The translations under genes were made by a program, and so were the position numbers. A stretch of DNA of 38,988 nucleotides from a virus: the IMG/VR virus record IMGVR_UViG_3300013372_001846, positions 1-38,988 of that record; one strand, written 5' to 3'. Positions 5,120 to 24,757 of the stretch are shown here, piece after piece. The stretch's first letter is position 1, and every line of letters begins with the position of its first letter. A model generated the notes under the pieces. That model made no database searches and was not told where the DNA came from. It saw only the letters and a program-made list of their open reading frames with translations.

Positions 5120-6418
5120 ATGAGTGCGTTTGACGACTATTTGCAATTACTAAATAATAATCCTAAAATGGATGCCACTAAACAGTGGGTAAACAAGTTA
5201 GGTAATAATGTAAAAACTGGTATAGAGGATAACTTACCAAAGGGCACCAATCCGACTGCTATGTTAGACTTTGCTTCTGCCAATAATCCTATTAGTCATG
5301 TTGCAAGTATGATTGGTAGTATGCGCCTACCTAGTGACACTGTAAGAGTGCACGATTGGTTAGATAATGGTATTGGTGCAGATATAACTCAAAAACAAGG
5401 TAATATACTTAATACTGTACAATCTTATTTTAAGAAAAAGTGGGGTGGTGATAATGACCAATTAGTTAAGTATATAGATGAAGGCGGAAGACTAAATGGC
5501 ATGGTTGGACCGTCACTGGAAAATCCTACCAATGGCCCTCTGTTGGGTAAAAACTACTCTAAGTCTGCAATAGCCACCATGCTAGATACGGCAAACAATG
5601 GTAACCGAATGGATGATGATCTTGGTGCTAGTATTTATTATACTCATGAGCAGTACCCTGATGCCTTAGTTGATACACCAACACAAAAAATAATGGACTA
5701 CATTAACGAACGTGGCAATGTTAATAATGAATATGAAAAACATATTAGTAGTATACAAAATGTTGCAGATACAGCCAGAGGATATAGAGGTACTAATCAG
5801 ATAGCAAAAACTGATGCAGGTAGATACTTTGAAAACCTTAATGATTTACAATATCTACGAGGACTTAGAAAAAGTCAATTACCTGGTGAAGATTTGGCAA
5901 ACTTAAACCCAAATTGGGATGTCAGAAAAATTGCAGAGAAAGCATCTGGTAACGCAAATAGGACATCACTAATAGATTTATTAAAGCAGTCAAATGAATA
6001 TGATGACTATATGGTTACTGATGTAGCAAAAAACAAAATTAAAATGAATCAAGATGCACAATTGGCTAGAGCCACACCTGTGCACAATATCGGTGATGAA
6101 TTCACTTGGTACAAAGTACCAGATTCTGCAGCAGCTAAAGTTGAAGGTCAGATAAGAGACAATTGCCTAAAAGAGGACTGGATGCAAAATAGGATTGACC
6201 AAGGTGAATCTGAAATATATTCACTAAGAGACAAAAATGGTAGACCAAAAGTTACTGCGGAATTTGGTGACACTGGCCTTGGCTCCCCTGGCTGGGTACA
6301 ATTTAAAGGTATGTCTAATTCAGAACCAAAGTCAAAATATCAACCATATATTGATTCACTAACTAAAGACTATGAACCATACCCAGACTTCCCATATGAT
6401 TGGCTATCTGATGACTAA
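5120..6418 (+). CDS. Phage protein with PcfJ-like C-terminal region
   Basis: A 432-residue protein with GGAGAATTGA before the ATG. The N-terminal two-thirds is hydrophilic and unrecognised. From about residue 325 the pattern WYKVPDSAAAKVEGQIRDNC, then GESEIYSLRDKNGRPKVTAEF, then a KSKYQPYIDSLTKDY tail resembles PcfJ-like domains of plasmids and phages, where the usual signature is a HCVG-type motif followed by 'G..IYSLRD..G.P..TIE'. Here the His-Cys-Val is changed to Asn-Cys-Leu. The function of PcfJ-like domains is not settled. It is the last gene of the plus-strand virion block and is followed by a hairpin terminator, so it may be a late virion protein. Confidence 0.55.
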   Translation: MSAFDDYLQLLNNNPKMDATKQWVNKLGNNVKTGIEDNLPKGTNPTAMLDFASANNPISHVASMIGSMRLPSDTVRVHDWLDNGIGADITQKQGNILNTVQSYFKKKWGGDNDQLVKYIDEGGRLNGMVGPSLENPTNGPLLGKNYSKSAIATMLDTANNGNRMDDDLGASIYYTHEQYPDALVDTPTQKIMDYINERGNVNNEYEKHISSIQNVADTARGYRGTNQIAKTDAGRYFENLNDLQYLRGLRKSQLPGEDLANLNPNWDVRKIAEKASGNANRTSLIDLLKQSNEYDDYMVTDVAKNKIKMNQDAQLARATPVHNIGDEFTWYKVPDSAAAKVEGQIRDNCLKEDWMQNRIDQGESEIYSLRDKNGRPKVTAEFGDTGLGSPGWVQFKGMSNSEPKSKYQPYIDSLTKDYEPYPDFPYDWLSDD

Positions 6419-20127: not shown

Positions 20128-20176
20128 ACCCTATATTCATATTAATATGGGTTTAACCTGTGGAGGATGTTATAAT

Positions 20177-22537
20177 ATGTTAAAAATTGGCATTGGTAAA
20201 AATGCAAAAAGTGAATGGATTGAACTAAATGAGTGTGAACAGTTTAGTGATTTTGGTAATTACATAGAATCTGCTTGTAAAAGCGGTATAATAAAGAATA
20301 AATTGGCACAACCTTATTTTGTTGCTACTGGAGATTGGAATTGGGTTGACAATCGTAGCAAACGAACTAAAAATGATTTACTTAGTACTGCTAAATATGG
20401 AATGATTATTATTGACGGTGATGAACCTAGTGATGATAATGGATTGATAAGTGCAAATTGGGTTCATAATGCATTAAAACAATTGAATATAAATCATTTT
20501 GTATATACAAGTTGGTCAAATGGAATTGGTGGAAAGAATAAATGGCGTGCTGTTATTGAATGTTATGATGGTTGCCCAATTAAATATTTACACGCTACAA
20601 CAAAAGATATAGTAGATAGATTAAATGTTGAACATACAAATATAGCTTATGCTAGTGAAAATCATTCTCCTGTCAGGATATGGTTTTTTGGTGGTTCTGA
20701 ACTTATTGATAAAGCTGAATTTCACAGTTATTATGAAGGGAATAGTTTAGATGTTGTATTCAAAGAAATGGAAATAGAGAGAGAGCATGATAAAAGTGCT
20801 AATTCTGCTAAGAATGATTACCGCTCATTAGATGATATGGTTAATAAAGTCATTGAATGGAAGTCTGGTAGTGGGTTATGGGATACAATAAGGGAATATG
20901 GTTGGGGTGTTGTTAAAGATGGATTGAAAAAGAGAAATGCAATTGTCTCTATCCAATCATTTATGAAAAATTGTCCTGAGATTAAAAGAGATGAACAATG
21001 GCAAAAATATTATGAAGATATTGAAAGAATGGTTGATGGTGCTATTATCAGGTGTCGTGATGAACTTGTGGATGGTAATGGTAGTGATAACATTAATATT
21101 GATGATTTTAAAACAAATCGTAGTGATAGTGTTGCTAGTGATGCAGATGGCATTCCTTGGCCTCCTGGGTTGTTTGGTAGACTTTGTCAAAACATTTATG
21201 AAATGCAAACCTACCAATATAGGGAAGTAGCTATTGTCACTGCTGTAGGTTTGGTGGCTGGTATTGCTGGTAGAAAATTTAATGTTAGTAGAACTGGATT
21301 AAATGTTTATTTAACTTTGCTAATGGGGACTGGTAAAGGGAAAGATTCAATTGGTAAGATAATAAGAAGAATATTGTTAGAGCTAAATGATATTGGTCAA
21401 GGGAGTTCATTTATAGGGAATAGTCGATTCACTGGACCAAAGGGTTTGATTGATAGTTTAGTATCTGCTAGATCACAAGTTTGTATATTTACAGAAGCAG
21501 GTATATTAATGCAATCTAGTGCTGGTGACCAATCTGGTTTAACTAGAGTACTGCTAGGTTTGTATGGTACAAGTGGTGAAAGAGATATTAGTTCAAGTGA
21601 AGCATATAGCAGAAAGGAAGATGGCATTCCTGCTATTAGGAATCCTGCTTTGTCTATCATTAATGAAGCTACACCTGAGACATTGCTTGATGCATTAAAA
21701 GATTCAAATTCATTAGATAATGGCTTATTGCCTAGGCAGAGTGTATTTAGAATTATTGGTAAGAAACCATATGAAAATGAGAATGTCAGAGAATTTATTG
21801 ATGATGATTTAATGTCCATTCTCAGAAAGTTGGTGGTCAAATGCGCTAGCATACAAAGCGAAGATAATTGTGTTGGTAAAGTCTGGCAGTTTGGTTTTGA
21901 GGATATGAATGAAAAAAGAGCTCATAGCAAATTCTGTACTGATGTAGAAAATAATAATGATGGTACTACAAAGGGTGTAATGGCTTCAAGAATGCATATG
22001 AAAACTATGAAGTTTGCCGCTATTGCCACTGTCATTAACAAATCAAATTATCATAAAGATGATAGACTGCTTATAGGTGGTTCTGAGTGGGAATGGGCTA
22101 AACGTATCACTGCATACGAATTGGCTGGCATAGAGCAAGTATTCAGCGGATCAGACTTTTCTAATGCATTTGAAGATGTTACTTATGAAGTATTAGTGCC
22201 ATTCATATATAAAATATTGTCTGGAGGTTTTACTGATTTTTCAATGGCCAGAAGTCCACAAGAGATTGAACACCAACTTATACCTTATAAGCTGTTTACC
22301 AGATCACTTAGGAAAAGCAAAAAGCTAGTATTCCAAAAGACTATTAGAAGTCCAATTGATGGACTAGATAATATATTACAATATATGCTCAATATGGGCT
22401 ATCTAACAATAAAAGAGTCATATACCGCTACCAGTAAGCCATATAAAGGTAAAACCCGCTCATATGACCCACTAGATTGTTTTAAGATACAGCAATGGAT
22501 ATTAGATAGCTATAAAGATAATTTTAAGTTTAAATAG
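20177..22537 (+). CDS. Primase/DUF3987 helicase replication protein
   Basis: A 786-residue replication initiator. The N-terminal part has MIIIDGDEP (Asp80, Asp82) and NKWRAVIE, then VRIWFFGG, compatible with an archaeo-eukaryotic-type primase core (hhDhD followed by a downstream acidic strand). From about residue 325 it is a DUF3987 helicase-like domain starting PWPPGLFGRL, with Walker A-like MGTGKGKDS at 383-391. The start at 20177 is chosen because GGAGG stands ten bases upstream; an in-frame ATG at 20147 lies before that site. It is followed by the AGGGAAA repeat region, a likely target. It would prime and unwind for the C-family polymerase. Confidence 0.85.
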   Translation: MLKIGIGKNAKSEWIELNECEQFSDFGNYIESACKSGIIKNKLAQPYFVATGDWNWVDNRSKRTKNDLLSTAKYGMIIIDGDEPSDDNGLISANWVHNALKQLNINHFVYTSWSNGIGGKNKWRAVIECYDGCPIKYLHATTKDIVDRLNVEHTNIAYASENHSPVRIWFFGGSELIDKAEFHSYYEGNSLDVVFKEMEIEREHDKSANSAKNDYRSLDDMVNKVIEWKSGSGLWDTIREYGWGVVKDGLKKRNAIVSIQSFMKNCPEIKRDEQWQKYYEDIERMVDGAIIRCRDELVDGNGSDNINIDDFKTNRSDSVASDADGIPWPPGLFGRLCQNIYEMQTYQYREVAIVTAVGLVAGIAGRKFNVSRTGLNVYLTLLMGTGKGKDSIGKIIRRILLELNDIGQGSSFIGNSRFTGPKGLIDSLVSARSQVCIFTEAGILMQSSAGDQSGLTRVLLGLYGTSGERDISSSEAYSRKEDGIPAIRNPALSIINEATPETLLDALKDSNSLDNGLLPRQSVFRIIGKKPYENENVREFIDDDLMSILRKLVVKCASIQSEDNCVGKVWQFGFEDMNEKRAHSKFCTDVENNNDGTTKGVMASRMHMKTMKFAAIATVINKSNYHKDDRLLIGGSEWEWAKRITAYELAGIEQVFSGSDFSNAFEDVTYEVLVPFIYKILSGGFTDFSMARSPQEIEHQLIPYKLFTRSLRKSKKLVFQKTIRSPIDGLDNILQYMLNMGYLTIKESYTATSKPYKGKTRSYDPLDCFKIQQWILDSYKDNFKFK

Positions 22538-22540
22538 TGT

Positions 22541-22851
22541 AGTAAGTTTAACCCCTATTTTCCCTCTAAGGGAAATGAGGGAAAGTGAAGGGAAAATAAT
22601 TTCCCTATATAAGTATCTGAAATATAAGGGAAAAAAGTGGAATTTCGATGATTTTTTTCTAAGGGAAATAACCGGTGTGAGACCCCAATAAATCTAAATA
22701 AGACTTATTCTTATTCCGAGAATTTCATCTTTTATTTATATATATATTTACTCTATATATAAAAAAAAGACTACTAAAACAACCTCTTAGCATAGGTAAA
22801 ATAATTCCCTTATATTTCCCTTAATACCGCTGTACAAATAAAAGGCTTATT
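22541..22851. other. AT-rich repeat region, candidate replication origin
   Basis: This 311-base gap contains no gene. It holds eight exact copies of AGGGAAA or TTTCCCT (at 22559, 22569, 22578, 22589, 22600, 22627, 22662, 22815) and one near copy at 22805. Two pairs form hairpins: 22559-22575 with a three-base loop and 22589-22606 with a four-base loop. A run of T/A alternation at 22734-22768 could melt easily. It lies between the primase-helicase and the RusA gene. Iteron-like copies plus an AT-rich tract next to a replication initiator fit an origin; operator sites are the alternative. Confidence 0.5.
22745..22759 (+). promoter_or_regulatory. Second copy of TATTTACTCTATATA upstream of RusA
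   Basis: An exact 15-base match to the element at 20099-20113. It lies 93 bases before the RusA start and may be its promoter. Confidence 0.35.
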
Positions 22852-23250
22852 ATGAACAGAATAGAGTTCTACACCAAATTCCCACCTACTATAAACAGTT
22901 ATTATACCAAGACAAAGAATGGAGTGTTTATAGGCAAGGTTGGTAATGCATATACAGCAGATACTATTAAGTCCATAATGGATTGTGTTGGGCCAATGAC
23001 TATTGATCAGCAGGTATCAATGACTGTGGTATTGTATCCACCAGACAATCGCAAACGGGATGTGGACAATTATATGAAGCCACTACTAGATAGCATTACC
23101 AAGAGCGGTTTATGGACGGATGATAGTCTAGTTGACCAATTGCTAATATATCGTGGTAGTGTGGTAAAAGGGGGCAAGGTTTGGGTAAGACTAGATGAGT
23201 CTATAGGTTTGATATTAGACTCGGATATATATCGAGAAAATATAGAATAG
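22852..23250 (+). CDS. RusA-like Holliday junction resolvase
   Basis: A 132-residue endonuclease cleaving four-way junctions. It carries PPDNRKRDVDNYMKPLLDS followed by SGLWTDDS, with Asp70, Asp72, Lys76 and Asp90/91 in the same positions as the catalytic residues of E. coli RusA. N-terminal PPTINSYY is also typical. The length matches the family. It starts immediately after the repeat region and ends before a bidirectional terminator. It would resolve branched intermediates generated by Sak4-type recombination before packaging. Confidence 0.93.
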   Translation: MNRIEFYTKFPPTINSYYTKTKNGVFIGKVGNAYTADTIKSIMDCVGPMTIDQQVSMTVVLYPPDNRKRDVDNYMKPLLDSITKSGLWTDDSLVDQLLIYRGSVVKGGKVWVRLDESIGLILDSDIYRENIE

Positions 23251-23703: not shown

Positions 23704-24255
23704 TTAGTTATATTTATATGACAGGTGAATCTTATTGAACATCATACGCTCATTGTTGAAGACTGTGCGATGTTTAACTTCATTAGGTGTACCAGTTGAC
23801 ATCAGTGAGTCAAAATCTTCATCAGTCATAATTGAAGTTGAGCAATAAGCCCACAGATGATCTCTGAGAGATCTAGCACGCTCAGACTTCTCAGCCTTTG
23901 GCATATACTCAGCTAGGATAGCCATAGCAACCTTAGCAGTATAGCCTTTAAATAGCAGCCATCCTTTTATCTCAGCTTTGGTTCTAGGTTGGTTAATTAA
24001 GTCTATTAGCTCAGCTTTGTCTTCAGCCTTGATAGTACCAGCCTCATTCTTTTTTGCCTCAGCCTCAGCCTCAGCCTGGGCACGTTCAGCTCTGGCTTGC
24101 TCACGTCGCTTAACATTCTCATCCGCTCTAGCTTGCTCACGCTCTTCTTGAGCCATCCTTGCCTTACGCTCTTCACGCTTTGCGTTTGCCTTAGCAGCAG
24201 CTTCAGCGTGGGCTTCTGGGTTACCGTTTACTTTAGTCTTAGTTTGTGCGTTCAT
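23704..24255 (-). CDS. Ala/Glu/Arg-rich coiled-coil protein of unknown function
   Basis: A 183-residue protein with AAGG eight bases before the ATG. Residues about 14-75 are almost only Ala, Glu, Arg, Lys and Gln and should form a long charged coiled coil. Residues 75-183 are a compact-looking domain (AELIDLINQPRTKAEIKGWL, then TAKVAMAILAEYMPKAE) that could include a winged-helix-like unit. It is more GC-rich than neighbours. It is the first gene of its own minus-strand transcript. The family is not recognised. Confidence 0.72.
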   Translation of the reverse strand: MNAQTKTKVNGNPEAHAEAAAKANAKREERKARMAQEEREQARADENVKRREQARAERAQAEAEAEAKKNEAGTIKAEDKAELIDLINQPRTKAEIKGWLLFKGYTAKVAMAILAEYMPKAEKSERARSLRDHLWAYCSTSIMTDEDFDSLMSTGTPNEVKHRTVFNNERMMFNKIHLSYKYN

Positions 24256-24306
24256 TTTAGTTGCCTTATTTTACGTTGACCACCAGAAGTCTCTGGCTTG
24301 AATAGT

Positions 24307-24334
24307 ATCATACTCGAATTAATTCAGAAGTAAA
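24307..24334 (-). promoter_or_regulatory. Sigma-70-like promoter, minus strand
   Basis: On the minus strand TTTACT (24334-24329) and TATGAT (24312-24307) are 16 bases apart, about 50 bases before the start at 24255. It would drive the three small genes 24255-23339. Confidence 0.55.
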
Positions 24335-24600
24335 GGTTTATTTTTAATTAGGTTAAAATAGTTTCACCCAGCCTCCTCCTATATAGATGATAGACTATTC
24401 TCAGGTGCTGTGGGCATCATAAGCAATATCTGCCCAGCAACCTCATATGCACCAACACCTGGCCATCTTATATATTATAATGCTGTTGTAACTTATTGAT
24501 TTGCCTGGACATTCCACCTGCCTCAGCGGCCACCTAGCATTTCTATACATGGCCAGGGGGGTTCAGAGGTATCAGTGTCACGTGACTGTCCTCCTGAAAA

Positions 24601-24625
24601 TTTTTTTTTTTTTTTTTTTTTTTTT
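24601..24625 (+). repeat. Run of 25 T
   Basis: An uninterrupted T homopolymer, preceded by CCTCCTGAAAA. No other homopolymer in the window is close to this length. It may be real or an assembly or library artefact at a physical genome end. Confidence 0.85.
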
Positions 24626-24646
24626 CTTCACCACTATAAATAATCC

Positions 24647-24675
24647 TTTACTTCCAAGCTATTATATAGTAGACT
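24647..24675 (+). promoter_or_regulatory. Candidate promoter of the terminase/structural operon
   Basis: TTTACT (24647-24652) and TAGACT (24670-24675) are 17 bases apart, with 82 bases left before the small terminase start. CCTTTACTTC here also occurs on the minus strand at the 24329 promoter. The -10 box is poor. Confidence 0.38.
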
Positions 24676-24757
24676 TATAAGCAATTAAAAATATTTACCC
24701 TTTAAAACATCTAAGGATAATTATTAATTAAAACAACAACTTAGGTTATATAACATT

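Follow-up and report, generated by a model that had tools for sequence, protein, structure and literature searches.

The 314-bp noncoding gap between the primase-helicase gene and rusA is, in our judgement, very probably the iteron replication origin of this phage, in support of the origin reading of the first-pass annotation. It makes up 0.8% of the window, by which we mean the whole 38,988-nucleotide stretch of viral DNA that was analysed. We base this reading on the array of repeated words in the gap, the conservation of the array in close relatives, the helical spacing of the copies, the soft AT-rich core between them, the recurrence of such arrays with other words in more distant phages, and the predicted fold of the protein encoded by the adjoining gene. 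The coordinates of the features are given in Table 1.

Table 1. Features of the putative origin region and of neighbouring elements in the window and related loci
Feature	Locus	Positions	Strand	Remarks
Primase-helicase gene	window	20147..22537	+	796 aa; PHROG 3022 DNA primase 1e-61; Pfam DUF3987
Gap, proposed replication origin	window	22538..22851		noncoding, between primase-helicase and rusA
Iteron copy 1, AGGGAAA	window	22559..22565	-	exact
Iteron copy 2, AGGGAAA	window	22569..22575	+	exact
Iteron copy 3, AGGGAAA	window	22578..22584	+	exact
Iteron copy 4, AGGGAAA	window	22589..22595	+	exact
Iteron copy 5, AGGGAAA	window	22600..22606	-	exact; lost in relative G002/L004
Degenerate motif A, CCCTTATATTTCAGATACTTATATAGGG	window	22603..22630	-	two mismatches to WATCAANNNNTTR
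Iteron copy 6, AGGGAAA	window	22627..22633	+	exact
Iteron copy 7, AGGGAAA	window	22662..22668	+	exact
AT-rich core, proposed melting region	window	22704..22772		between the two iteron sets
Best IHF-like site in the gap, rusA leader excepted, AAACAACCTCTTA	window	22777..22789	+	one mismatch
AGGTAAA region	window	22793..22799 (within a base or two)	+	one base off AGGGAA
Iteron copy 8	window	22804..22810	-	6-bp core AGGGAA (22805-22810) exact; mismatch at the seventh base
Iteron copy 9, AGGGAAA	window	22815..22821	-	exact
rusA, Holliday-junction resolvase gene	window	22852..23250	+	Pfam RusA 2e-12; PHROG 34 5e-31
SS1_01-like gene	window	23704-24255	-	kinship by position and weak similarity
SS1_01-like gene	L008	100-723	-	
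SS1_01-like gene	L009	6119-6781	+	
SS1_01-like gene	L011	8123-8440	-	
SS1_01-like gene	L017	~5511-5687	-	
G-run/A/T-run stretch	window	24540-24640		
G-run/A/T-run stretch	L017	6150-6260		
G-run/A/T-run stretch	L008	1240-1360		
G-run/A/T-run stretch	L009	5610-5700		

The first-pass annotation had described eight exact copies of AGGGAAA and one copy with a single mismatch in this noncoding DNA, in both orientations, and reading of the sequence bore this out. Copy 8 reads TTCCCTT with its neighbouring base, which is a mismatch of one base in the 7-mer, and at 6 bp (AGGGAA) all nine copies are exact. Seven copies precede the AT-rich core and two follow it, and the array is bordered by rusA, which is on the same strand as the primase-helicase gene. 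The enrichment against shuffled sequence was confirmed, because 2000 dinucleotide shuffles of the gap gave a mean of 0.25 and a maximum of 3 AGGGAAA as against the 8 observed. AGGGAAA is the only 7-mer that reaches eight copies per 314-bp stretch anywhere in the window, and the word-cluster scan ranked the primase-rusA gap first among the noncoding gaps of the window. The word had also been said to be rare elsewhere. This holds for AGGGAAA, 8 of whose 13 copies in the window lie inside the gap, but not for the core AGGGAA, which occurs 17 times outside it, among them five + strand copies in the primase gene, which is G-rich. These five lie at 20737-21420, the most G-skewed part of that gene. 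The AT-rich tract that had been noted beside the array is indeed there, and in duplex stability its softest 50-mer (22729-22778) ranks within the lowest 0.04% of the window. The gap has two of the features by which an iteron origin is recognized, namely, a short noncoding word repeated more often than chance would give and, beside the copies, an AT-rich segment that is easily melted. The change in GC skew at 22.6 kb that had been proposed as a check was not found. The skew takes no turn at the array and its cumulative minimum is at about 19.95 kb, where the genes switch strand; this would speak against an origin at the array, but GC skew is uninformative on the origin.

The array is kept in two near relatives. 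The three genomes agree at 53 of the 54 AGGGAA core columns, compared to 23 of 34 columns of the immediate flanks and 144 of 191 of the remaining gap positions (p 5.7e-5). In the AT-rich core 65 of 69 columns are identical. Both close relatives have a tenth AGGGAA site at the position where the window has AGGTAAA. The two small hairpins reported earlier are present in the window (at 22559-22575 and 22589-22606), but one of them is not maintained because one close relative is without copy 5 and hence without that hairpin. Among the five AGGGAA inside the primase gene, three differ in the 96% relative. Since the core is kept, copy 5 with its hairpin is lost, and the copies inside the primase gene are less conserved, the conserved unit is a 6-bp duplex word and not a hairpin, and this word is AGGGAA and not AGGGAAA.

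The first-pass annotation had proposed to look for the array in related phages. It recurs there, but beyond the two close relatives it does so mostly with other words. Further scans gave about 30 distinct regions in diverged phages, most of them inside the primase-rusA gap; elsewhere, where primase and rusA abut, the array is beside them or between the replication and terminase blocks. The word differs by phage group, with AGG within many: AGGGAAT in G007, AAGGAAAA in L017, ATTAAGTA (six copies) in G004, TAGGAAA (six copies; CTAGGA, eight) in G005, ATCCTTA (eleven) in L237, TGGAGGAA (seven) in L249, AAGGTAGG (five) in L235, and AGGGTAA (six) in L224, among others. The array is directly 3' of the primase-helicase gene in the window, G007, L017, G004, G005, G016, 033B, ART, and phiAxp-1. 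Arrays are present in more distant, cultured phages as well. Following the homologous primase gene, Vibrio 033B has eight copies of AGGGAAA, the window's own word, ART has seven of GGGGCAGA, and phiAxp-1 has nine of CCGAAAAC. FtMidnight has six copies of AATAGTAA and two perfect IHF-like sites two small genes beyond its primase, and Kakheti25 has two perfect IHF-like sites and a weaker word; in Kimi, RcThunderbird, CAjan, and ESCO3 no clear array was found directly downstream of the primase homologue. In these exploratory scans, whose thresholds were not fixed beforehand and whose loci, being from one metagenomic collection, are not independent, the top word exceeded shuffles (p<0.05) in 23 of 31 regions versus 23 of 111 other noncoding stretches. 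Thus, word enrichment is informative yet unspecific by itself, as 21% of the control stretches are positive. When all loci were scanned for words without supervision, short contigs yielded no information and most of what was picked were coding repeats. In 32 of 55 cases the distance between neighbouring copies on the same strand is 9-12 bp (mode 11), whereas 4.6 such cases were expected and at most 14 were obtained in 2000 placements; proteins that bind along one face of the helix would be expected to show such spacing. In most regions the copies flank the softest segment on both sides.

A second motif that recurs across the family, motif A (CCTTATAAATCAAGGACTTACG), includes the IHF consensus WATCAANNNNTTR. 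This site, first noticed in a few phages and then counted over the 31 regions, is present in 17 of them as against 0.62 expected from shuffles, and in 5 of 111 control noncoding stretches of the same loci. When only regions from the later scans are considered, it is present in 10 of 18 where about 0.33 would be expected. In the gap of the window's own clade there is no consensus IHF site but only one- and two-mismatch versions (Table 1), the motif A copy of relative L004 having one mismatch to WATCAANNNNTTR.

The product of the gene upstream of the array has an N-terminal primase-like part, an MCM/AAA+-like helicase at residues 340-668, and a predicted winged helix at 668-796. The predicted model of residues 340-668 matches MCM helicases with Z 19, and a RepB'-like match, 3h20, is among the Foldseek rows. 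Pfam RepB_primase was found in 7 of 34 and Prim-Pol in 5 of 34 primases of relatives (alignment A10). In the same alignment the N-terminal primase part varies among relatives and the helicase core is kept; domain exchange is a possible cause of this variation. The primases of L184, L206, and L214 were excluded from the alignments because each has one in-frame stop near the C-terminus. This stop is within the homologous stretch; translation may truly end early there, the codon may have been reassigned, or the stop may be an error. When modelled alone, the C-terminal 129 residues are predicted to take a winged-helix-like fold (mean pLDDT 83), and the model resembles the winged helices of MukE, MarR, PadR, TubR, and ORC with Z 7-8.7 and rmsd of about 3, where Z values of 7-8 may reflect a common arrangement only. 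With this domain Foldseek gave no match below 0.1. A kinship to ribosomal protein uS8, raised by weak PDB profile matches of the primase and of the C-terminal part (best E 0.001), was rejected as chance or a shared local fold. The iteron words may be read by the predicted C-terminal winged-helix domain, in analogy to P4 alpha and SaPI Rep.

We propose that the primase-helicase from the adjoining upstream gene would bind the AGGGAA iterons on either side of the AT-rich core, probably via its predicted C-terminal winged-helix domain, and that IHF, a DNA-bending protein of the host, would assist in folding the complex in most relatives. The helicase, loaded as hexamers, would melt the AT-rich core, and both strands would be primed by the primase-helicase for the phage's own PolIII-type polymerase. 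Replication from such an origin would presumably be bidirectional.

The first-pass annotation had offered a repressor operator as the alternative to an origin, and an operator array would mean that a phage regulator controls the transcription of rusA or of late or early genes via these words. An operator would suit the position of the array in the window, upstream of rusA, and that of the module in RY-3 and Ss1, upstream of the early operon. However, the promoter/terminator scan of the gap gave matches at chance level, and in L011, a closer relative, the array (AGGGGGAA) directly follows rusA and is between two converging genes. In 033B, ART, and phiAxp-1 it directly follows the primase whatever gene comes next. 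Iterons that flank an AT-rich core together with an IHF-like site also fit an origin better, and an origin is supported by about 30 diverged phages in which the gene neighbour is the same and an AT-rich core is present, many of them with an IHF-like site as well. An operator is therefore unlikely. It is still less probable that the array is a single-stranded or RNA hairpin element, that is, an ssDNA priming site or a structured transcript, and not a duplex binding array. It is true that the strand of the gap is more stably folded than shuffled sequence (z -4.4 for RNA and -4.2 for DNA) and that pRN1 relies on a stem-loop located 3' of its replication gene (PMC4234260), but inverted copies of one word alone produce such a fold, and the relatives keep the 6-bp core while they change flanking pairs and lose one hairpin copy. 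Moreover, an Rfam search gave no match, and hairpins do not require direct copies to be helically spaced.

IHF acts at cos sites too in some phages, and this would favour a packaging (pac/cos) site to which the small terminase subunit binds, as would the placement of the module between the replication and terminase blocks in Ss1-like genomes. We consider this quite improbable, since the array stays at the primase in more distant phages and since a separate G-run/A/T-run stretch closer to terS in the window, L017, Ss1, and RY-3 is a better candidate. In this stretch a G-rich run, or its complement, is near a long A/T run between an SS1_01-like gene and terS, and it is possible that this is the packaging site. 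The window gap that holds it, 24256-24757, contains an IHF consensus site. The SS1_01-like gene, between the array region and terS, is small and poorly conserved and has no confident family match; its product could be another DNA-binding candidate.

The window is kin to Cronobacter phage Ss1 and to Vibrio phages VA-RY-3 and PVA7 (TerL, PolIII alpha, Sak4, SSB-like protein, primase, and RusA). In Ss1 and RY-3 primase and rusA abut and no array separates them. The strongest noncoding word cluster of RY-3 and PVA7 (AGGATAAA; AGGGGA) lies between the replication block and the terminase block, and AGGGGAT copies occupy the equivalent place in Ss1; in these three phages and in G010 the module does not adjoin the primase. 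In PVA7 (L010) PolIII alpha, primase, and TerL are each split over several short ORFs, which suggests sequencing errors in the deposited genome. A RusA search of genome contigs found no relative, and a DNA search with the primase-array-rusA stretch against cultured phages gave no match.

Phage iterons beside an AT-rich segment are known from lambda O; in lambda, however, the iterons are within the gene for the initiator, a protein that is not a helicase. The origins of PICIs, SaPIs, Cch2, and pRN1 are immediately 3' of the replication gene (PMC6092414; PMC7581432; PMC4234260), as is the origin candidate in the window. Cch2 of SCCmec binds direct repeats just downstream of its own gene (PMC7581432), the pRN1 origin is a stem-loop downstream of the primase-helicase gene, and P4 alpha unites primase, helicase, and a C-terminal winged helix that binds origin repeats in one protein (PMC4234260). 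Whereas PICIs and SaPIs are satellites, the replicons described here are phages; their protein is a DUF3987 primase-helicase built on an MCM-like core, and many of them have an IHF-like site. That the window is itself a PICI was rejected because its genes include a large terminase and a PolIII-type polymerase and its relatives Ss1 and RY-3 are complete phages. The window protein resembles P4 alpha in that primase, helicase, and C-terminal winged helix are predicted in one chain, but P4 is a satellite and its alpha protein has a bacterial-type Toprim primase whereas the N-terminal part here is RepB'/Prim-Pol-like. Like the pRN1 protein, it is predicted to combine an archaeo-eukaryotic primase, a helicase, and a winged helix, and its gene likewise has an origin candidate directly downstream, but pRN1 has a long stem-loop and no iterons.

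In the literature we found no description of origins of phages with this primase family, nor, in open-access papers on Ss1, FtMidnight, or Septimatrevirus, of the array. We give an even chance to the wider proposal that phages with DUF3987 primase-helicases have one origin type, in which the initiator's C-terminal domain and its iteron word change in step, each lineage acquiring a private word within a common IHF/AT-core frame. Such private words may be likened to plasmid incompatibility groups. The origin organization of PICIs has been said to be common to them and to no other known bacterial replicon (PMC6092414), and our findings bear on this claim. If the proposal is true, the PICI-like organization would be a general phage replication system and not peculiar to satellites. 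A recognizable anatomy beside a recognizable gene would allow origins to be predicted in many genomes, metagenomic ones included, and such predictions could be tested in E. coli phages, e.g., FtMidnight. It also suggests a possible source of the replication module of satellites, or how satellites could compete for it.
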